A program made the position numbers and the translations under genes. A model generated the notes under the pieces. It had not been told where the DNA came from. It did no database searches and saw only the letters and a list, made by a program, of their open reading frames with translations. DNA of 64,000 nt from Caballeronia sordidicola (lineage in GTDB: Bacteria; Pseudomonadota; Gammaproteobacteria; Burkholderiales; Burkholderiaceae): NCBI RefSeq assembly GCF_000729995.1, contig NZ_JNFG01000011.1, positions 62,001-126,000 on the forward strand. The letters run 5' to 3'. Shown piece by piece: positions 53,850 to 63,111 of the stretch (the stretch's first letter is position 1; every line of letters starts with the position of its first letter).

Positions 53850-54284
53850 TCAGGCCACCTCGAAGAGAACCCCGCACGACACGCGGTCCAGCAGCAACGC
53901 ATGGTTTTCCCCGGTCCACCAGCGCGCAAAAAATCCTTCAGGGTGATGCCCGATGACAATCAAGTCCACCTTCAAAGAATTGGCGAGGCGCGGAATCTGA
54001 TCAACGGGATTGCCAGTCGCAAAATGGCCCGTTGCGTCGACGTCCCACTCCCGGAGCTTGTCCACGCCCTCCTGGAGAATCTCGCGGGCAACCTGTTCGT
54101 CGAGGTCGAAGCTGATCGCGGACAAGACATCGAACCCGCGCGTCCAATACGAGCAGTCGGGAATAGAAAGCAGGTGAGTCTCGGCATGCAGTTGCTTCGC
54201 AAGCATTGCACCGCAGCGTAACGCGGTCCTGCCCTCCGGCGTTGCGTCGTAACACAGCAGAAACCGATTGAACGGGGACATCAT
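53850..54284 (-). CDS. Universal stress protein (UspA family)
   Basis: This 144-residue single-domain Usp begins MMSPFNRFLLCYDATPEGRTALRCGAMLAKQLHAETHLLSI. The nucleotide-binding region is VDLIVIGHHPEGFFARWWTGENHALLLDRVSCGVLFEV, close to the ATP-binding GxxG-N9-G(S/T) pattern but with GEN in place of the usual GS. AAGGAAACG precedes the ATG at 54284. Upstream, at 54407-54425, lies one of three copies of a MarR-like operator, shared with the divergent HPP gene. Confidence 0.9.
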   Translation of the reverse strand: MMSPFNRFLLCYDATPEGRTALRCGAMLAKQLHAETHLLSIPDCSYWTRGFDVLSAISFDLDEQVAREILQEGVDKLREWDVDATGHFATGNPVDQIPRLANSLKVDLIVIGHHPEGFFARWWTGENHALLLDRVSCGVLFEVA

Positions 54285-54608
54285 CGTTTCCTTTACGGAA
54301 AGTCCGGCGGGGATCCAGCCGAAGGCCGTCCGTCCAGCGTGGTTCCGTGTAAGCGCCGGTAAGCTCGTTGCAGGCACGCACCCTTAGCAGTTCCTTGCTC
54401 TAAGTTTATATCACTTTGTGATATATAAAACGACAATTTACACGATGGCCTGACTCACAACCGAGCTGCCATGACGGCCCGAAGCCGCTCCGACGAACAC
54501 CTTGATATATGTCATAATCACATACTTTTTTACACTATGTTTGGCAGGAGACACTGCCTGACGGTGAGGACGCCCGACATAAGGTCGCTCACACTATCTT
54601 CCAAGCTT
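54285..54608. promoter_or_regulatory. Divergent usp/HPP promoter region
   Basis: This 324-bp AT-rich gap separates the Usp and HPP genes. It contains the MarR-like palindrome at 54407-54425. If the HPP protein starts at an earlier in-frame ATG (54471 or 54537) the gap shortens accordingly. Confidence 0.5.
54407..54425. promoter_or_regulatory. MarR-like operator, copy A
   Basis: TATATCAC-TTT-GTGATATA is a perfect 8-bp palindrome with a 3-bp centre. Identical arms occur at 57276-57294 and 60657-60675. It lies between the divergent Usp and HPP genes and overlaps AT-rich -10-like sequence on both strands, which suits a repressor site. Confidence 0.8.
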
Positions 54609-55748
54609 ATGGTCCGATCCGCTCTCGCACGTTGGCTTCTCAGCTTCTCCCCTTCACCCGTCGCACTTGCGTGGCCCGAACGATTCAGGTCCTGTCTCGG
54701 CGCCCTGCTCGGCATATCCTTCACCGCAGGGGTGATGCACGTTTTCCTGGGCGACAACGCGTTCATCCCTCTGCTGGTTGCGCCAATGGGGGCCTCCGCA
54801 GTGCTGCTGTTCGCTGTGCCCGCGAGCCCTCTCGCGCAACCCTGGTCGATCGTCGGCGGCAATATCGTTTCCGCGATTATCGGCGTGGCGTGTGCAACCT
54901 GGATCACGAACCCGATCGACGCCGCGCCGATTGCAGTGGCACTGTCGATTGGTGCGATGTTCGCGTTCAGGTGCGTGCATCCTCCCTCGGGCGCGGTCGC
55001 GCTCACTGCCGTGCTCGGCGGGCCAGCCGTGCATGCGCTCGGATTCGGATTTGTCATTGCGCCAATAGCAGCGCAGTCGTTTGCACTGCTGGCGGTCGCG
55101 ATCGTGTTCCACGCGTCGACAGGGCATCGCTATCCTCATGCAGCGCGCTCAGCGAAGGAGACCGGCGTCCGTGCGCCGGCGGCCAGTCCTGGCTTCACAC
55201 GAGAAGACCTCGAGGCGGTGCTCGGCCGTCGCAACGAATTGCTGGACATCGACCCATCGGATCTCGAATCGCTGCTGCTGGAAATACAGCTGCAATCGTA
55301 TGCGCGCAGTTTCAGCGGACTGAGCTGCGCGGACATCATGTCCAGCCCCGTCGTTTCGATCGCATCCGGCACGACGATTACCACTGCCGCCGCCATGCTC
55401 AAGCGTCATGGCATCAAAGCGCTTCCTGTCATTGATGACCGCGCGTTCGTGGTCGGCATCGTCACTCAGGCCGACGTCGCGAGAAACATGGCGGCCGGAA
55501 AGCTCAGGGTGTTGGCGACATTGATCGACAGATGGTTCGCCGGGCCCGGTTCAGCACTCACGGTCGCGTCCATCATGACGACCCACGTGTCCACAGTCAG
55601 CGCCACGACATCGATTGCCAAGCTCGTGCCACTATTCGCCGCCTATGGCCACCACCATATTCCGGTGCTCGATACGCAGGAAAAACTCGCCGGCATGATC
55701 ACGCAGGCCGACCTGATACTGGGCCTCTACCGGCAAACGCACACCTAG
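54609..55748 (+). CDS. HPP-family integral membrane protein with two CBS domains
   Basis: This 379-residue protein has four hydrophobic helices (about residues 20-160) containing the name-giving motif RCVHPPSGAVALTAVLGG, and two CBS domains (about 235-290 and 310-365; TTITTAAAMLKRHGIKALPVID, GHHHIPVLDTQEKLAGMITQADLIL). HPP proteins have been linked to nitrite transport in plastids and cyanobacteria; the bacterial CBS-fused forms are uncharacterised. The start is uncertain: MVRSALARWLLSFSP fits homologues but lacks a clear ribosome-binding site, and ATGs at 54471 and 54537 are in frame. It is probably controlled by MarR through operator A. Confidence 0.87.
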   Translation: MVRSALARWLLSFSPSPVALAWPERFRSCLGALLGISFTAGVMHVFLGDNAFIPLLVAPMGASAVLLFAVPASPLAQPWSIVGGNIVSAIIGVACATWITNPIDAAPIAVALSIGAMFAFRCVHPPSGAVALTAVLGGPAVHALGFGFVIAPIAAQSFALLAVAIVFHASTGHRYPHAARSAKETGVRAPAASPGFTREDLEAVLGRRNELLDIDPSDLESLLLEIQLQSYARSFSGLSCADIMSSPVVSIASGTTITTAAAMLKRHGIKALPVIDDRAFVVGIVTQADVARNMAAGKLRVLATLIDRWFAGPGSALTVASIMTTHVSTVSATTSIAKLVPLFAAYGHHHIPVLDTQEKLAGMITQADLILGLYRQTHT

Positions 55749-55806
55749 CCGAGGCGAGAAACGCGAAGCTGGCACTTGGGGACACAGCCGCCGGCACGGC
55801 TTACTG

Positions 55807-56028
55807 CTATCCGGCCTGACTACGCAGGTGGGCCAATCTCGACGCCGCCGCCTTGACTGGCTTACCGGTAATTTCGTCATGGCTGTCGGCGCTTAGTCCT
55901 GCAAATCGTCCATTGGCCTGCGCGTGCTGCAGCACGTCCTGCGGAATCAGCGACGCCAACACGAACGTCACGCCGGCTCCTGCCGCCATCAAGGCGATTG
56001 TGCCGGCTATCCATAGTGCGATGCCCAT
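55807..56028 (-). CDS. Small single-pass membrane protein
   Basis: This 73-residue protein begins with one transmembrane helix (MGIALWIAGTIALMAAGAGVTFVLASLI), followed by a hydrophilic tail (HAQANGRFAGLSADSHDEITGKPV). AAGGAG lies upstream of the ATG, so it is likely to be real. I do not recognise a family. It converges with the HPP-CBS gene and is followed by no clear terminator. Confidence 0.65.
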   Translation of the reverse strand: MGIALWIAGTIALMAAGAGVTFVLASLIPQDVLQHAQANGRFAGLSADSHDEITGKPVKAAASRLAHLRSQAG

Positions 56029-56296
56029 TTTCGACTCCTTCGCTTGATCGTTCGTTGTTGGATCTCTTCAGCATCTGTCGGGCCTTCATGGGCGCGACAT
56101 CGAAAATATCTCAATCCGATTTCATTTAAGCATCCGTATCGCATGGCAACAAGTTAAATATATTGCTGTTTACATGCAATAATTTTGAATATAAAAAGCG
56201 CTTGAAGCGATAGTCAGGCAGGTGGCTGATGGTTGCAGTTGATCCACGGTGCAGAACTCCCGCCCTTTCAAATCAAACTATTTGCATGCAGGCCCC

Positions 56297-57160
56297 ATGG
56301 ACGTCGAACTCGCGCGCACGTTTCTTCAGGTGGTCAGATCGGGAAGTCTGGTCTCGGCAGCCGCACACCTGCACGTCACCCAGACCGCGGTGACCGCACG
56401 AATCAAAAACCTCGAAGCGCAACTGAAGTGCCGCCTGTTCGAACGCAACAAAGCGGGCGCGCGGCTCACCACAGATGGTGAAAAATTTCTCGGCTACGCC
56501 AGCCAGCTCGTCCAGACGTGGGAGGCGGCGTGCCGCGATCTGCCATTGCCAAGCGGCTACGACGACATGTTCACGTTCGGTGCGGACGCGAGTCTCGCGA
56601 ATCCACTCGTGCTGCATTGGGCCGCCCGGTTGCGCCAGGATCTATCTACCCATGCAGTGCGCGCGGAGTTGGGAGACGGTGCTGTGCTCCAGCAAAAAGT
56701 GCGCGGTGGCGTACTCGATGCGGCGCTCGTATACGGACCGGAGTATGTCGCGGGCATTCAGGTCGAGGAGATAGTGGAGGAAAAGCTGGTGCTGATCCGG
56801 ACATCACAAAAAGCGGGACCGTATGTCTACGTCGACTGGGGTCCCGAATACAGGCGACAGCACGACATATCGCTGCCCGAGCACGCGAAGTCGTCGCTGT
56901 ATTTCAACCTCGGCCCGCTGGCTCTGCAATACATCCTTCAGTTTGGAGGCTCGGGCTATTTCAGAACCCGCGTCGTCAAGTCTTACCTCGATCATGGCGT
57001 CCTCGAACGAATCGTCGAGGCACCTGAGTTCTCCTATCCCGTGTACGTGGTCTATCCGCGATCGTCGAGCAGAACCGGCTTGCAAGCGGCGCTGACCATC
57101 TTGCGACAAGTAGTGAAGGAGGACGCCGACTGGTCGCAGCGATGGGACTTCCTCGTCTAG
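56297..57160 (+). CDS. LysR-family transcriptional regulator
   Basis: This 287-residue regulator begins MDVELARTFLQVVRSGSLVSAAAHLHVTQTAVTARIKNLE, with the LysR helix-turn-helix. The effector domain is divergent (GADASLANPLVLHWAARLRQD, SSLYFNLGPLALQYILQFGGSGYFRTRVV). A longer frame from 56249 would add 16 unlikely residues. The 268-bp AT-rich gap upstream separates it from the small membrane protein gene and holds its promoter. The target is unknown. Confidence 0.88.
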   Translation: MDVELARTFLQVVRSGSLVSAAAHLHVTQTAVTARIKNLEAQLKCRLFERNKAGARLTTDGEKFLGYASQLVQTWEAACRDLPLPSGYDDMFTFGADASLANPLVLHWAARLRQDLSTHAVRAELGDGAVLQQKVRGGVLDAALVYGPEYVAGIQVEEIVEEKLVLIRTSQKAGPYVYVDWGPEYRRQHDISLPEHAKSSLYFNLGPLALQYILQFGGSGYFRTRVVKSYLDHGVLERIVEAPEFSYPVYVVYPRSSSRTGLQAALTILRQVVKEDADWSQRWDFLV

Positions 57161-57275
57161 CGTTGCACCGGGCTCTCGCGCGCTTGACCGGTCGTCTGTG
57201 CTCTTTACAGTTCCATCAGCCCAAGTGCGCGTCACACCAAGCTTCCCGGTCCTGCGCATGCAGGACTCTTCCATA

Positions 57276-57294
57276 TATATCACCATGTGATATA
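57276..57294. promoter_or_regulatory. MarR-like operator, copy B (marR promoter)
   Basis: TATATCAC-CAT-GTGATATA lies 36 bp upstream of marR. Its right arm runs into TATAAT (57291-57296), a perfect -10 hexamer, so a bound regulator would block RNA polymerase. This is the expected autoregulatory site. Confidence 0.82.
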
Positions 57295-57330
57295 ATTTAA
57301 ATGTAGGTTCGTGACAGGACTTTTCCCCCC

Positions 57331-57744
57331 ATGAAAGAAGCTTCCCGCACACTCAGCAAAGAAAACTTTGAACAGCTGTCCGAGTTCCGCTACCAGATGC
57401 GGCGATTCGAGCGGTTCTCCGAGCAAGCCGCTCAGGATGAAGGCATTACGCCGCTGCAGTATTTGCTGTTGTTGCATATCAAGGGGTATCCGGACCGCGA
57501 TTGGGCAACGGTGGGCGAACTCGCTGAGCGTCTTCAGGCACATCACCATGGCGTAGTTGCGCTCGTGTCGCGGTGTGAAGCGTTGGATCTGGTCAAGAGA
57601 AAGCCTAGCGAAACTGATCGCCGCCAGGTCGAGGTTCATCTGCTGAAACCCGGAGAAAAAATCCTCTCGCGGCTAGCCGAATTGCATCGGGCAGAACTGA
57701 AGTCGCTCGCGGGGACCTTCCGCGTTCCGCAGGTCGATCTTTAG
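57331..57744 (+). CDS. MarR-family transcriptional regulator
   Basis: This 137-residue winged-helix dimer has the recognition segment TVGELAERLQAHHHGVVALVSRCEALDLV and the wing KRKPSETDRRQVEVHLLKPGEK, containing the conserved D-R region. Residues 10-40 and 110-137 form the dimerising helices. Its promoter carries a perfect palindrome that recurs upstream of the Usp/HPP and DUF1840 genes. It is followed by the ClC gene (51-bp gap), which is probably in the same transcript. The signal it senses is not known. Confidence 0.93.
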   Translation: MKEASRTLSKENFEQLSEFRYQMRRFERFSEQAAQDEGITPLQYLLLLHIKGYPDRDWATVGELAERLQAHHHGVVALVSRCEALDLVKRKPSETDRRQVEVHLLKPGEKILSRLAELHRAELKSLAGTFRVPQVDL

Positions 57745-57794
57745 ATCGATGCATGCGGATGCAATAAACAAATCCGAATTGTTCAGGAGTTAAT

Positions 57795-59585
57795 GTGCAC
57801 GAAAACGCTTCACGAGGTGATTTTGCAGCGAATGCTCATCTGCCGCGCATCACGGCCATTGCGGTAGTAATCGGCGCGTTGAGCACGGTCACGGCCTATG
57901 TCCTGCTCCACCTGATCAATTTCTTCACCAACCTTTTCTTCTTCCAGTCCCTGTCGTTTGAGAATCACTCGCCCGCGGGAAATACCCTCGGTCTTTGGGT
58001 GATCGTAATTCCCGTGATCGGTGGCCTGGTGATCGGACTGATCGCGCGCTATGGCAGCGAAGCCATCCGCGGACACGGCATTCCTGAAGCGATCGAAGCC
58101 ATCCTGTTCGGCAAGAGCAAGATGTCGCCGAAGGTCGCGGTGCTCAAGCCCCTGTCCTCCGCAATAGCCATCGGCAGCGGCGGCCCGTTCGGTGCGGAAG
58201 GGCCAATCATCATGACGGGTGGCGCCATCGGGTCGCTGATCGCACAGTATTTCCACCTGACCGCCGGTGAACGCAAGACGCTGCTCGTCGCCGGTGCCGT
58301 AGCCGGGATGACGGCGGTGTTCGGTACACCTGTCGCGGCGGTCCTGCTCGCGGTCGAGTTGCTGCTGTTCGAACTGCGCCCGCGTAGCCTGCTGCCCGTT
58401 GCGGTGGCGTGCGCGGTGGCTGGGTTCACGCGGCCCCTTCTGATCGGCAGCGGCGCCCTGTTCCCGTTGCAAACCCTCCCACTGGGTCCGCTCGGCCTCA
58501 TTTCATGCGTGGTCGCGGGACTCGTGGCGGGCGCCATGTCCTGGGGTTTGTCATCGGCCTTATACAAGGTCGAGGACCTCTTCGGCAAATTGCCGATTCA
58601 CTGGATGTGGTGGCCGGCGCTGGGCGGCATTGCGGTCGGCATCGGCGGATATTTTGAGCCGCGTGCGCTCGGCGTGGGCTATGACGTCATCGGTGATCTG
58701 CTGCATAACCATCTTGCGATCAGCGTCGTGGCCGGTCTGATACTGGTGAAGGCGATCATGTGGGTCATCGCCCTCGGTTCCGGCACATCCGGAGGCGTAC
58801 TCGCGCCGCTGCTGATGATGGGCGCGGCCATGGGAACCATCTTCGGACCGTTCCTGCCTGGCGGGGAACCCGCAGTATGGCCGCTGGTATTCATGGCGGC
58901 GACGCTCGGCGGAATGATGCGCGCACCGATCATGGCAACCGTGTTCGCGTTCGAACTTACCCATGACGCCAACGTGCTGCTGCCTCTCCTCATGGCGTCG
59001 GCTGTTGCGTACGGATTCACGGTGCTGCTGATGCGGCGCTCCATCCTGACCGAGAAGATCGCGCGCCGCGGTTATCACATCTATCGGGAATACGGCATCG
59101 ATCCTCTTGAACGCCATTTCGTCGAAGAGGTGATGACGCGCAAGGTCGAGACGATCGATGCGGATATGCCGGTCGCCGAGGTGCTCGCAAAATACTTTGG
59201 TGAGAAGCAAATCCATCGCGCGTTTCCGGTGACGCGAGACGGCGCCCTGGTAGGGATGATCGAGCGTGACGGATTTATCGCGCGAACCGGCAATCCAGCC
59301 ATCCAGGTCATGAGCAACCTGTTCGGCGCAAACACACCCATCATGGCGTTGCCCGGCGAAACCTGCCGGATCGCGTCCAACCGGTTGGCCGTGCATGGGC
59401 TCGAGCGCTTGCCCGTGGTCTCTGATCCGCAGTCGCGTCATCTCGTGGGCTTGATAAGCCGTAGCGATCTGGTGAAACCGTCGCTCGCTTTCTTCGAGGA
59501 AGAGGAACATCGCGAGATGTTCCGGCGCTCTCCCCTGCACCATTTGAAAAAGCGGTTTTCACCGGTGCCCAGGCATAAAGACTAA
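57795..59585 (+). CDS. ClC-family chloride channel/antiporter with C-terminal CBS pair
   Basis: This 596-residue membrane protein has about 10-12 helical segments with ClC selectivity motifs: GSGGPFGAEGPII (gating glutamate kept in GAEGP), and GSGTSGGVLAPLLMMGAAMG. Two CBS domains occupy about residues 440-495 and 505-570. Translation begins at GTG with AGGAG upstream; the overlapping ATG at 57793 is out of frame. It probably moves chloride or fluoride-like anions, with nucleotide sensing by the CBS pair. It is likely to be co-transcribed with marR. Confidence 0.92.
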   Translation: MHENASRGDFAANAHLPRITAIAVVIGALSTVTAYVLLHLINFFTNLFFFQSLSFENHSPAGNTLGLWVIVIPVIGGLVIGLIARYGSEAIRGHGIPEAIEAILFGKSKMSPKVAVLKPLSSAIAIGSGGPFGAEGPIIMTGGAIGSLIAQYFHLTAGERKTLLVAGAVAGMTAVFGTPVAAVLLAVELLLFELRPRSLLPVAVACAVAGFTRPLLIGSGALFPLQTLPLGPLGLISCVVAGLVAGAMSWGLSSALYKVEDLFGKLPIHWMWWPALGGIAVGIGGYFEPRALGVGYDVIGDLLHNHLAISVVAGLILVKAIMWVIALGSGTSGGVLAPLLMMGAAMGTIFGPFLPGGEPAVWPLVFMAATLGGMMRAPIMATVFAFELTHDANVLLPLLMASAVAYGFTVLLMRRSILTEKIARRGYHIYREYGIDPLERHFVEEVMTRKVETIDADMPVAEVLAKYFGEKQIHRAFPVTRDGALVGMIERDGFIARTGNPAIQVMSNLFGANTPIMALPGETCRIASNRLAVHGLERLPVVSDPQSRHLVGLISRSDLVKPSLAFFEEEEHREMFRRSPLHHLKKRFSPVPRHKD

Positions 59586-59671
59586 GCAACCCGCGAGCGC
59601 CCGTAGGCCGCTCCCAAGGCTGTAGCGTCCGACGCCTGGCGGCTCATCGCGTCGACCGATTGGAAAACGTC

Positions 59672-60574
59672 ATGTCTTACAAAACGATCGAAGACACCAT
59701 CGGCAACACGCCGCTGGTCCAGCTCCAGCGCATCCCTGATGACGGCACAGTCAAGCGGGGCACCGTGATCCTCGGCAAGCTCGAGGGACACAACCCCGCG
59801 GGCTCGGTGAAGGACCGGCCTGCGCTGTCGATGATCAAGCACGCGGAAGCCCGTGGGCACATCAAGCCGGGCGACACGTTGATCGAATCCACGAGCGGCA
59901 ATACCGGGATCGCGCTCGCGATGGTGGCGGCAATCCGTGGCTACAGGATGGTCCTGATCACGCCGGAAGATATCTCGGTAGAACGCCGCCAGAGCATGGC
60001 GGCCTTCGGCGCGCAAATAATCCTGACGCCGGCAACCGGTGGTATGGAATACGCTCGCGATCTGGCCGAAAAAATGCAACAGGAGGGCCAGGGCGTGATC
60101 CTCGACCAGTTCGCCAATCCCGACAATCCGTTGGCTCACTACGAGACCACCGGACCCGAGATCTGGCGTGACACGGCGGGACGCATTACCCATTTCGTCT
60201 CCGCGATGGGGACCACCGGCACAATCATGGGTGTATCGCGCTTTCTGAAGGAACAGAGCGGGAGCGTGGAAATTGTCGGCGTGCAGCCGGAGGATGGTTC
60301 GCGCATTCCCGGCATCCGTAGGTGGCCGGAATCGCATACGCCAAGGATTTTCGAGCGAAGCCGCATAGATCGGATCGAGACCGTCAGTCAGGCGGCGTCA
60401 GAAGCCATGGTGCAACGCCTGGCTGCCGAAGAAGGCATCTTTTGCGGCGTCTCGGCAGCGGGCGCGTGCGAAGTCGCTTTACGGATCGCCCGTCAGGTTG
60501 AAAATGCGACGATTGTCTTTGTAGTGTGCGATCGCGGTGACCGGTATCTGTCGACGGGACTATTTCCGGCGTAG
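59672..60574 (+). CDS. cysM: Cysteine synthase B (O-acetylserine sulfhydrylase, CysM type)
   Basis: This 300-residue PLP enzyme makes cysteine from O-acetylserine (or O-phosphoserine) and sulfide or thiosulfate. The catalytic lysine is in NPAGSVKDRPA, the phosphate- and substrate-binding loops are ESTSGNTGIA and MGTTGTIMGVSRFL, and VQPEDGSRIPGIRRWP is typical of CysM. The ATG at 59672 is preferred over a TTG at 59660. It lies 86 bp after the ClC gene in the same direction and may belong to the MarR-controlled transcript. Confidence 0.92.
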   Translation: MSYKTIEDTIGNTPLVQLQRIPDDGTVKRGTVILGKLEGHNPAGSVKDRPALSMIKHAEARGHIKPGDTLIESTSGNTGIALAMVAAIRGYRMVLITPEDISVERRQSMAAFGAQIILTPATGGMEYARDLAEKMQQEGQGVILDQFANPDNPLAHYETTGPEIWRDTAGRITHFVSAMGTTGTIMGVSRFLKEQSGSVEIVGVQPEDGSRIPGIRRWPESHTPRIFERSRIDRIETVSQAASEAMVQRLAAEEGIFCGVSAAGACEVALRIARQVENATIVFVVCDRGDRYLSTGLFPA

Positions 60575-60656
60575 GAAACTCGGCTTTTCGTCGATGGCGC
60601 CATGCGGTGTGTAATGCCGCTTCCGCGTGACTAATACCTCCTGGTCCGATTCATTC

Positions 60657-60675
60657 TATATCACATCGTGATATA
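60657..60675. promoter_or_regulatory. MarR-like operator, copy C
   Basis: TATATCAC-ATC-GTGATATA lies 58 bp upstream of the DUF1840 gene. The right arm again runs into a perfect TATAAT (60672-60677), the same architecture as at marR. Confidence 0.82.
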
Positions 60676-60732
60676 ATATTGATGTCGCGTTATTTCACGC
60701 GAAGGGCTTCAGTGAACAGGAGGTGGTCTGCC

Positions 60733-61053
60733 ATGTTGATCACATTCAAATCGCGAGCATCACCCGACGTGTTGATGCTTGCCGACCTCGCAACTTACCT
60801 TCTTGGTATTGTTGGCAAACGACTTAGCCCGCGTGGAGTTATCGCACGCGATGAGTTATCAAATGTCATTGGCCGGATGGAAAACGCCATCGCGGAAGAC
60901 CAGAGAACGTCTGATGCACACGATGAGATGCACTACGGAACACAAACGGGTGTACATGAGCGCAGTGCAGGACTCGCACAGCGCGCGTATCCTTTTTTGG
61001 GCATGCTTCGTGAAGCTCGAAAAGAGGATGCAGACATTATCTGGGGCCTGTAG
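60733..61053 (+). CDS. DUF1840 domain-containing protein
   Basis: This 106-residue protein matches DUF1840: MLITFKSRASPDVLMLADLATYLLGIVGK, then a helical region and the C-terminal RAYPFLGMLREARKEDADIIWGL. AGGAGG precedes the ATG; the longer frame from 60679 starts inside the promoter. The function is unknown. An exact copy of the MarR-like operator overlaps its promoter. Confidence 0.88.
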   Translation: MLITFKSRASPDVLMLADLATYLLGIVGKRLSPRGVIARDELSNVIGRMENAIAEDQRTSDAHDEMHYGTQTGVHERSAGLAQRAYPFLGMLREARKEDADIIWGL

Positions 61054-61824: not shown

Positions 61825-63111
61825 ATGCAAGTCACCGGTATGCTGCACGGAGCCAAGATGCTCCAGTTCGTCGATTTCCCCACTACCGAGGTATTGGGAC
61901 CCGACGCCAGCGAGGAAGAGATCAAGGCGCTGATCGACAGACATGGCCTGATCTTCATCAAGCCCGTGTTCAAGGGCGGCGTTGGCAAGAAGGGCAAGGC
62001 CGGCCTGATCGGCAAGGCGACCGACCTGAAGACCGCGCTGAAAGAAAAGGAACGTTTGTACTTTGTCGAGCACCGGGTCGGACACACGGTGGCCAAGGCC
62101 AACGGCGTGACCTTCGAAGCCGGCGTGCCCGCCGAGCACGAAGTCTACTTTTCGATCACTGACTCGACGCATTACCGCGCGCCGACGATGACGCTCACCC
62201 ATCACGGCGGCATGGACATCGAAGAGCTCGACAGGAGCCAGGTCGCGCAAATACCTTTTGACCCGCTCACCGGGTTGAAGGCTTTTGTGGTCGCCAACGC
62301 GCTGTCCGCGCTAGGCGCGCCCAAGCAGATCATCTCGCCGTTGGTGCAGCATCTGCCCAAGCTGTGGGAGCTGTATCACGACTACGGCATGTCCACGCTC
62401 GAGTTGAACCCTATCCGCATGCGCGTGGACAAGAAGGGGCGCATGACACCCGTGGCCTGCGATTTCAAATGCGGCTTCGACCGCGACGATCCGCGCTGGC
62501 GGCGGCTGAATTTGCCCGCAAGCCTGTTCGCGGTCGACTACTCCGACTTCGAGCAAGAGATCAATCAACTGCGCACATACCAGGGCCAAAGCGACGTCTA
62601 TGTGATCAACGCGGGCGGCACCATCCTCGCGCCGACCTTCGGCGGCGGCGCCAATTCACTCGTCACCCAGATGCTCGGCGACGACGCCATCATCTCCTCG
62701 GATTTCGGCGGCAACCCGCCTTACGAAAAGATGAAAGAGGTAGCACGTATCTGCTTCAAACACTGGATCAAGCAGAGCAACGTGCTGTTCATCATCGGCG
62801 GCAAGTCGAACAACACCGACATCTTCGAGACCTTCCGTGCGATGGCCGATGCGCTGCGCGAGCACTTCAGCCGGCACGGCGCCACGCCGCTGTACGTGGT
62901 GATCGGCCGCGGCGGCCCGAACTTGGTGCGCGGCATGGGCGCGATGCGCGACACGCTCGATGCACTCGGACTGCCCTATCGATTCTTCGGTTTCGACTCG
63001 GACATGAGCGAGGTCGTGCTGCACGCGAAGAAAGTCGATGCATGGATGAAGTCCGGCGGCCGCGAGCAGGTAGCGGCCCGGCTCGGCATAGCGTCCAGCC
63101 AGGCAGCCTGA
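61825..63111 (+). CDS. ATP-citrate lyase/succinyl-CoA synthetase beta-like acyl-CoA synthetase subunit
   Basis: This 428-residue protein has an N-terminal ATP-grasp region (about 1-210, IFIKPVFKGGVGKKGKAGLIG, STLELNPIRMRV). A C-terminal ligase/citrate-binding half follows (about 250-425): NAGGTILAPTFGGGANSLVTQMLG, IGGKSNNTDIFETFRAMADAL and VIGRGGPNLVRGMGAMRDTLDALG. Size and order match the small subunit of two-subunit ATP-citrate lyases (about 423 residues) and the large subunit of citryl-CoA synthetase, rather than SucC. AAGGGGCTCACC precedes the ATG. The following gene encodes the CoA-binding partner. Confidence 0.8.
   Translation: MQVTGMLHGAKMLQFVDFPTTEVLGPDASEEEIKALIDRHGLIFIKPVFKGGVGKKGKAGLIGKATDLKTALKEKERLYFVEHRVGHTVAKANGVTFEAGVPAEHEVYFSITDSTHYRAPTMTLTHHGGMDIEELDRSQVAQIPFDPLTGLKAFVVANALSALGAPKQIISPLVQHLPKLWELYHDYGMSTLELNPIRMRVDKKGRMTPVACDFKCGFDRDDPRWRRLNLPASLFAVDYSDFEQEINQLRTYQGQSDVYVINAGGTILAPTFGGGANSLVTQMLGDDAIISSDFGGNPPYEKMKEVARICFKHWIKQSNVLFIIGGKSNNTDIFETFRAMADALREHFSRHGATPLYVVIGRGGPNLVRGMGAMRDTLDALGLPYRFFGFDSDMSEVVLHAKKVDAWMKSGGREQVAARLGIASSQAA

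Follow-up and report, generated by a model that had tools for sequence, protein, structure and literature searches.

A palindromic site conserved upstream of marR is a probable MarR operator in a proposed anoxia, nitrate and nitric oxide regulon of Caballeronia sordidicola

Three identical palindromes in a Caballeronia sordidicola locus

The 64-kb stretch of Caballeronia sordidicola DNA analyzed here, hereafter the window, comprises positions 62001-126000 of contig NZ_JNFG01000011.1 (C11) in a draft genome of 10.26 Mb. Within it the palindrome TATATCAC-N3-GTGATATA occurs in three perfect 19-bp copies, whose centres read TTT, CAT and ATC, respectively; the first separates the divergent genes for a universal stress protein (USP) and for a transmembrane HPP protein with CBS domains, the second lies in the promoter of a marR gene, and the third precedes a gene for a DUF1840 protein (Table 1). 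The original prediction had placed three exact copies with differing centres at these coordinates, one of them in the marR promoter, and had noted that two right arms run on into TATAAT; all of this was borne out, the right arms of sites 2 and 3 entering TATAAT at 57291-57296 and 60672-60677. The window held no match beyond these three when up to three mismatches were allowed, and dinucleotide shuffles gave a mean of 0.02 matches at the same threshold, with three being reached in 0 of 100. Site 3 is overlapped by one weak terminator-like stem; a scan of the region for intrinsic terminators made 2 calls versus 5.2 in shuffles, that is, fewer.

The gene for a ClC anion transporter with a CBS region probably shares one operon with marR, and cysM is probably part of the same operon. 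The proposal of a regulon tied to MarR, which has a site for autoregulation and takes in the USP, HPP-CBS, marR-ClC(-cysM) and DUF1840 genes, is supported. The HPP-CBS gene had been taken to start at 54471; the more likely start is 54609, the frames of its relatives (loci L179 and L191) beginning with MV[RQ]SALARW. When the ClC protein was aligned to 1kpl, GHGIP was found to replace GSGIP in the filter, and the gating glutamate is kept in GAEGP; ClC filters carry serine for chloride and proline for nitrate, and GHGIP is neither form. Behind the cluster, at 61825-63111 of the window, lies a gene for an ATP-grasp or ATP-citrate-lyase-like protein, a 98% identical match of which is found 3 kb from marR in C. 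sordidicola locus L023.

Table 1. Sites, genes and promoter-like elements. Positions are those of the window unless a contig is named.
Feature	Position	Strand	Remarks
USP	53850..54284	-	Pfam Usp 2.7e-14
Putative extended -10-like element TGATATAAA	54405..54413	-	inside operator 1, reads towards USP
Operator 1	54407..54425	.	exact palindrome; between divergent USP (-) and HPP-CBS (+)
HPP transmembrane + CBS protein	54609..55748	+	TM_HPP 5.5e-46; CBS 4.6e-26, two stretches; open frame from 54471
LysR-type regulator	56249..57160	+	Pfam; upstream of marR; judged not part of the system
Operator 2	57276..57294	.	exact palindrome; ends 37 bp 5' of marR start
Putative extended -10 element TGATATAAT	57288..57296	+	overlaps operator 2
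MarR-family regulator, candidate site binder	57331..57744	+	Pfam MarR_2 1.2e-14; orthologues, co-occurrence
ClC anion transporter with CBS region	57795..59585	+	Voltage_CLC 1.9e-77; CBS 1.7e-15
Cysteine synthase CysM	59672..60574	+	NCBIfam cysteine synthase CysM 1e-154, above cut-off
Operator 3	60657..60675	.	exact palindrome; 58 bp 5' of DUF1840 start
Putative extended -10 element TGATATAAT	60669..60677	+	overlaps operator 3
DUF1840 protein	60733..61053	+	Pfam DUF1840 4.6e-26
Site	C214:149616		precedes PNPOx-narGHJI operon
Sites (two)	C214:165877; C214:175758		each precedes a small frame
Site	C214:166929		precedes second marR-ClC-cysM
Site	C214:170331		precedes DUF1840 gene, 91.5% to window DUF1840 protein
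Site	C214:172443		precedes cyclopropane synthase
Site	C214:176021		3 mismatches; precedes HiPIP
Site	C214:178713		3 mismatches; precedes flavohaemoglobin
Site	C214:179614		3 mismatches; precedes another DUF1840
Site	C214:181043		precedes chemoreceptor
Site	C199:245428		precedes second PNPOx-narGHJI operon

Further sites across the genome

At up to three mismatches the motif was found at 21 places in the genome, compared with 5 for a reversed control pattern, and the pattern TATATCAYNNNRTGATATA at up to one mismatch gave 10 sites and 0 control sites. With up to two mismatches there are 11 sites, comprising the 3 of the window, 7 within 31 kb of contig C214 (149616-181061) and 1 on contig C199; random scatter was not seen, 10 of the 11 being clustered on two contigs near gene starts. 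The regulon is not local, as had been supposed, 8 of these 11 sites lying outside the window. Genes were assigned to the sites by position (Table 1); the start of the flavohaemoglobin gene probably lies 49 codons inside its frame, as judged by 408-residue relatives in L180 and L220.

A 3.78-kb stretch, from marR-ClC-cysM to DUF1840, is also present on C214 with 93.3% DNA identity, which accounts for the near-copies of sites 2 and 3 found there; the two pairs are therefore not mutually independent. Nor does the genome encode a single MarR, as had been suggested, since the copy on C214 is 94.9% identical to that of the window. Several further features of these clusters were observed. Directly 3' of the operator there recurs a small frame whose N-terminus resembles MIINNDFEIGY (L017:5960-6155, L017:15451-15750; L175, L186). 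Between operator sites on C214 (L017:13649-15532) there are pieces resembling an ATP-binding cassette transporter (by Pfam) and a USP (by eye), and this part of the cluster looks as if it were decaying. In the motif cluster of a close relative, genome G231, a gene for an SLAC1-type anion channel follows HiPIP (L175:8061-8807), making it the third anion-channel family there.

MarR as the candidate binding protein

The protein encoded at 57331 passed the MarR_2 model (54.6 bits, cut-off 27) and fell slightly below that of PF01047 (22.7 bits, cut-off 24.6); its PDB relatives include MgrA. No named NCBIfam MarR equivalog reached its cut-off, the best being Saro_0803 (30.4 versus 200 bits) and BilQ (27.3 versus 125 bits), and the closest named orthologues (92-95% identity) belong to Caballeronia or to a record labelled Burkholderia sp. 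Among the best 80 of 94 loci encoding a relative of this MarR, 70, ranging from Caballeronia to Thiobacillus, carry a site with up to three mismatches in the 260 bp that precede marR, compared with 7 of 2365 windows taken at random from these 80 loci.

A survey of 200 genomes from the order, in which a match at E up to 1e-25 was scored as MarR-positive, found MarR in 39, the motif (up to one mismatch) in 37 and both in 25. The motif thus occurs in 25 of 39 MarR-positive versus 12 of 161 MarR-negative genomes (p 2e-13, kinship being ignored in this and the following comparisons), and the exact motif in 10 of 39 versus 0 of 161; the reversed pattern occurs in 1 of 39 and 8 of 161. Since this control is present in 9 of 200 genomes, the 12 motif-bearing genomes without MarR are close to background. 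In 18 of the 25 genomes having both, the motif lies, by its coordinates, directly upstream of marR.

These results bear on the idea that the palindromes are due to chance, or that they are repeats or structural elements of the DNA that no regulator serves. The duplication of sites 2 and 3 along with their block would suit a repeat; the expectation of 0.02, the occurrence of a site before marR in distantly related bacteria whose flanking sequences are unrelated, and its tie to the presence of MarR make this the most improbable of the explanations considered.

The recognition region of the protein, LQAHHHGVVALVSRCE, is nearly invariant among aligned relatives, and His73 and Cys82, the latter its sole cysteine, are unchanged in alignments of 23 and of 28 sequences, which is only a hint that these residues may serve ligand or redox control. 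Paralogous MarR genes occur at 22 places in the genus at 54-62% identity, 11 loci of which were taken for comparison: all 10 with APNGTA in place of HHHGVV lack a site at up to three mismatches, and L218, with ASNGAG in the recognition helix, has one site with two mismatches. As a separate observation, the APNGTA clade adjoins a ClC gene that gave no CBS match in 5 of 5 loci scanned (L210, L212, L213, L215 and L217), so that MarR and ClC are paired in the clade that has the operator and in the one that lacks it alike.

The LysR-type gene at 56249 is the immediate upstream neighbour of marR in the window and also adjoins marR in G231, a close relative (L175, L179), and the palindrome fits the T-N11-A dyad rule for LysR-type regulators. 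That this protein or another LysR binds the sites is nonetheless very unlikely: strong relatives were found in 2 of 200 genomes (for many of which only 11 candidates were scored), one of them MarR-negative, and the 80 marR loci gave one match, 38% identical and 9.4 kb away (L033), though the motif persists. On this distribution the LysR-type protein was rejected as binder, and the MarR of the window is, from these comparisons, the best candidate binder of the palindromes.

One operator arm may double as an extended -10 box

In 49 marR promoters from Burkholderiaceae and Oxalobacteraceae, many of them closely related, the TG of the right arm is invariant, and the T two bases past the palindrome, which completes a -10 box, is present in 49 of 49, the mirror position being split between A and T; this asymmetry was not seen in 21 distant sites. 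The extended -10 consensus is TGnTATAAT, for which TG-A-TATA(A/T)T qualifies. Of 15 site orientations examined in the genome, 4 match TGATATAAT perfectly, namely those of the first marR (marR1), the DUF1840 gene of the window, its C214 counterpart and HiPIP. When scanned for conventional -35/-10 promoters, the sites gave no call, a result that is compatible with extended -10 promoters but does not prove them. An arm that doubles in this way suggests that in Burkholderiaceae the MarR protein would repress by occlusion.

A proposed common theme of anoxia and nitrogen oxides

In distant relatives the surroundings of marR and of the motif point in the same direction as the narGHJI, flavohaemoglobin and HiPIP targets. 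In L223, marR is near a radical-SAM gene, a PilJ-type histidine kinase and narK genes, with the start of NarG 7 kb and NnrS 3 kb away; in a Thauera metagenome-assembled genome (L097) it stands beside a response regulator, a kinase with the same domains as that of L223, and narI; in P. adhaesiva (L062) it stands beside narGHJI-PpiC-NarK. In a Thiobacillus locus (L077) marR diverges from yip1 and a gene for DsrC, and DUF2249 and hemerythrin genes are close by. In G062 a site precedes a yip1 gene, on a contig where about 10 kb also takes in narK, narG and the genes for a response regulator and a CRP-type regulator. NarG was present in 23 of 39 MarR-positive versus 40 of 161 MarR-negative genomes, and NnrS in 30 of 39 versus 72 of 161. 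The original prediction had proposed a theme of nucleotide sensing and cysteine synthesis; the targets in this genome (narGHJI, flavohaemoglobin and HiPIP), like the nar, NnrS, DsrC and Yip1 neighbours in distant relatives, point to anoxia and nitrogen oxides more than to nucleotides or cysteine as such.

Motif-bearing genes also occur apart from marR: the motif stands at a ClC gene 336 kb from marR in G178 (L133), at a ClC gene on a contig other than that of marR in G082 (L142), and at HPP-CBS in G122 (L146), where the gene has a 3-kb contig of its own and linkage to marR is possible. The ClC gene of G082 is divergent from an Rrf2 gene, the top NCBIfam match of whose product is NsrR, below cut-off. 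The sites of G158 and G162 are among those without an interpretable target.

We consider it probable, from sequence comparison, that the MarR protein from 57331 and its C214 copy have the palindrome as their operator, and that this protein is an autoregulated repressor of a regulon for anoxia, nitrate and nitric oxide (NO) stress. A MarR dimer would repress its own operon, marR-ClC-cysM, and the dispersed USP, HPP-CBS, DUF1840, cyclopropane synthase, HiPIP and flavohaemoglobin genes together with the two PNPOx-narGHJI operons. The arm nearer the gene (TGATATA followed by AT) would at several promoters serve as the extended -10 box, so that the bound dimer would mask the contact of RNA polymerase. 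MarR may be released by a signal of low oxygen, of nitrite or NO, or of a redox change linked to these, and nitrate or nitrite may be the cargo of ClC and HPP.

Observations at the nar promoters and the weight of a possible general stress regulon

A number of observations weigh against this interpretation, several of them at the nar promoters. The nar sites are weaker than the others (2 and 1 mismatches), match a -10 box poorly, and in G231, a close relative, have decayed to 3 mismatches; that on C199 lies about 140 bp upstream of PNPOx. At both nar promoters an exact FNR-type box, TTGACATAGGTCAA, lies between palindrome and gene, and a third narG (on contig C38, L221) has neither palindrome nor FNR-type box in the surrounding 10.5 kb. 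The sites of HiPIP, flavohaemoglobin and the second DUF1840 gene have 3 mismatches each in the original pattern. USP, CysM, cyclopropane synthase (CMAS) and DUF1840 give no indication of nitrate by themselves; four Burkholderia genomes have only 1-5 sites each at up to one mismatch; ClC or HPP adjoins marR in 0 of 27 distant loci; and 14 of 39 MarR-positive genomes lack the motif at up to one mismatch. No site was found within 260 bp upstream of marR at up to three mismatches in 10 of 80 loci, namely L058 (which has one at 4 mismatches), L068, L069, L070, L074, L075, L079, L082, L083 and L094; in L074, L075 and L094 a site lies about 780 bp upstream instead, a yip1 gene intervening in L074. 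The co-occurrence tests take no account of phylogeny. A word search of a study of Burkholderia cenocepacia under micro-oxia found MarR, HPP and chloride unmentioned (PMC3759415).

Much of this would suit a serious though less probable alternative, in which the same MarR operator governs a regulon for redox or stress at large (thiol state, membrane stress or organic hydroperoxide) and nitrate genes were recruited in some lineages only. The non-nitrate genes, with Yip1 and DsrC added to those above, the weak nar sites, the narG of C38 without a site and the few sites kept by the four Burkholderia genomes all favour it, as does OsbR of Chromobacterium, a MarR protein that affects nar and is described as oxidant-responsive (PMC8567585); against it stand the adjacency of nar and the nearby NnrS in separate lineages, and the association with NarG and NnrS.

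The palindrome and the TTGACATAGGTCAA box share a promoter in both nar copies (L016:6617-6814 and L019:7286-7447). NnrS ends just before the nar site and is not behind it, and the PNPOx start codon of the C199 copy is ACG in that of C214. Exact FNR-type boxes (TTGAYNNNNRTCAA) close to sites were found only at these two promoters; boxes with one mismatch by sites 2 and 3 sit in coding sequence (57469 and 60736), and that by site 1, at 54502 ahead of HPP-CBS, falls in non-coding sequence and could be genuine. Across the 53 nearer orthologue loci, an FNR box lies within 250 bp of 0 of 51 HPP-side sites and of 8 of 124 sites overall, versus 76 of 2480 random positions. The poor -10 match and the FNR-type box suggest a less simple control of nar, in which a repressor may be superimposed on an activator of the FNR type.

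The palindromes might themselves be an operator of FNR/DNR, NsrR or another known nitrogen-oxide regulator, with whose regulons the target genes overlap (those of NsrR and DNR; PMC1274295). This is highly improbable, even more so than a LysR binder: the consensus sequences differ (TTGATnnnnATCAA for DNR and ctTTGcgnnnncgCAAag for NnrR, as given in PMC1274295), both nar promoters carry an exact FNR-type box apart from the palindrome, and TTGAT-N4-ATCAA, the FNR/DNR operator, is absent from all three window palindromes. FNR/DNR was rejected as binder of the palindrome, to which its consensus is unlike.

Implications

If the MarR regulon of anoxia and nitrogen oxides is as proposed, a MarR layer would be added to the control of nitrogen oxides by FNR, DNR and NsrR. 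The poorly understood HPP-CBS, ClC-CBS, DUF1840, Yip1 and USP proteins of Burkholderiaceae and other betaproteobacteria would gain an operator, a candidate regulator and a common theme, and the cargo of bacterial HPP-CBS and of CBS-fused ClC proteins becomes testable, nitrite and nitrate being the first candidates. A more far-reaching version, which we think rather unlikely, is that this conserved betaproteobacterial MarR family is an undescribed sensor of nitrogen oxides or anoxia that acts through the invariant Cys82, adjacent to its recognition helix, and couples the respiration of nitrate and the defence against NO to a module that handles nitrate and nitrite, made up of a ClC-CBS antiporter (GHGIP) and an HPP-CBS nitrite carrier, by means of an operator that doubles as an extended -10 box.

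Comparison with known systems

We regard the regulon as real, conserved and of a familiar kind, and no description of it was found: among the open-access papers searched, the titles listed for the TATATCAC/GTGATATA motif with MarR, and the titles and beginnings of abstracts listed for MarR with nar, NnrS, ClC, HPP, Yip1 or USP, gave no account of it. Among the closest systems is OsbR (CV_3905) of Chromobacterium violaceum, likewise a betaproteobacterial MarR protein, which is oxidant-sensitive, represses narXL and narK1K2GHJI, and in electrophoretic mobility shift assays bound its own promoter and those of narX and CV_3659 (PMC8567585). By its description OsbR has Cys55 and Cys133, whereas the window MarR has the single Cys82, invariant in its relatives; the Results text on OsbR gives no operator motif and no HPP, ClC or USP theme (PMC8567585). 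CioR, also of C. violaceum, is a MarR repressor encoded within its target operon, with a theme of respiration and NO resistance; it differs, as far as its description goes, in controlling cytochrome bd, and the paper on it uses neither the word motif nor the word palindrome (PMC11837568).

The NsrR, DNR and NnrR regulons resemble the present one in overlapping targets, hmp and nitrogen-oxide genes, and differ in regulator family and operator, ClC and chloride having 0 occurrences in the account consulted (PMC1274295). The lxa locus of Burkholderia cenocepacia, which is up at low oxygen, is described as a cluster with several universal stress proteins (PMC6127331), a likeness to the USP genes found here. 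Lastly, AtNITR2;1, a candidate nitrite transporter, belongs to the HPP membrane family (Maeda 2014, as cited in PMC4137279); the HPP protein of the window carries CBS domains in addition and its transport is at most predicted, and the candidacy of AtNITR2;1 makes nitrite a sensible candidate cargo for HPP-CBS.

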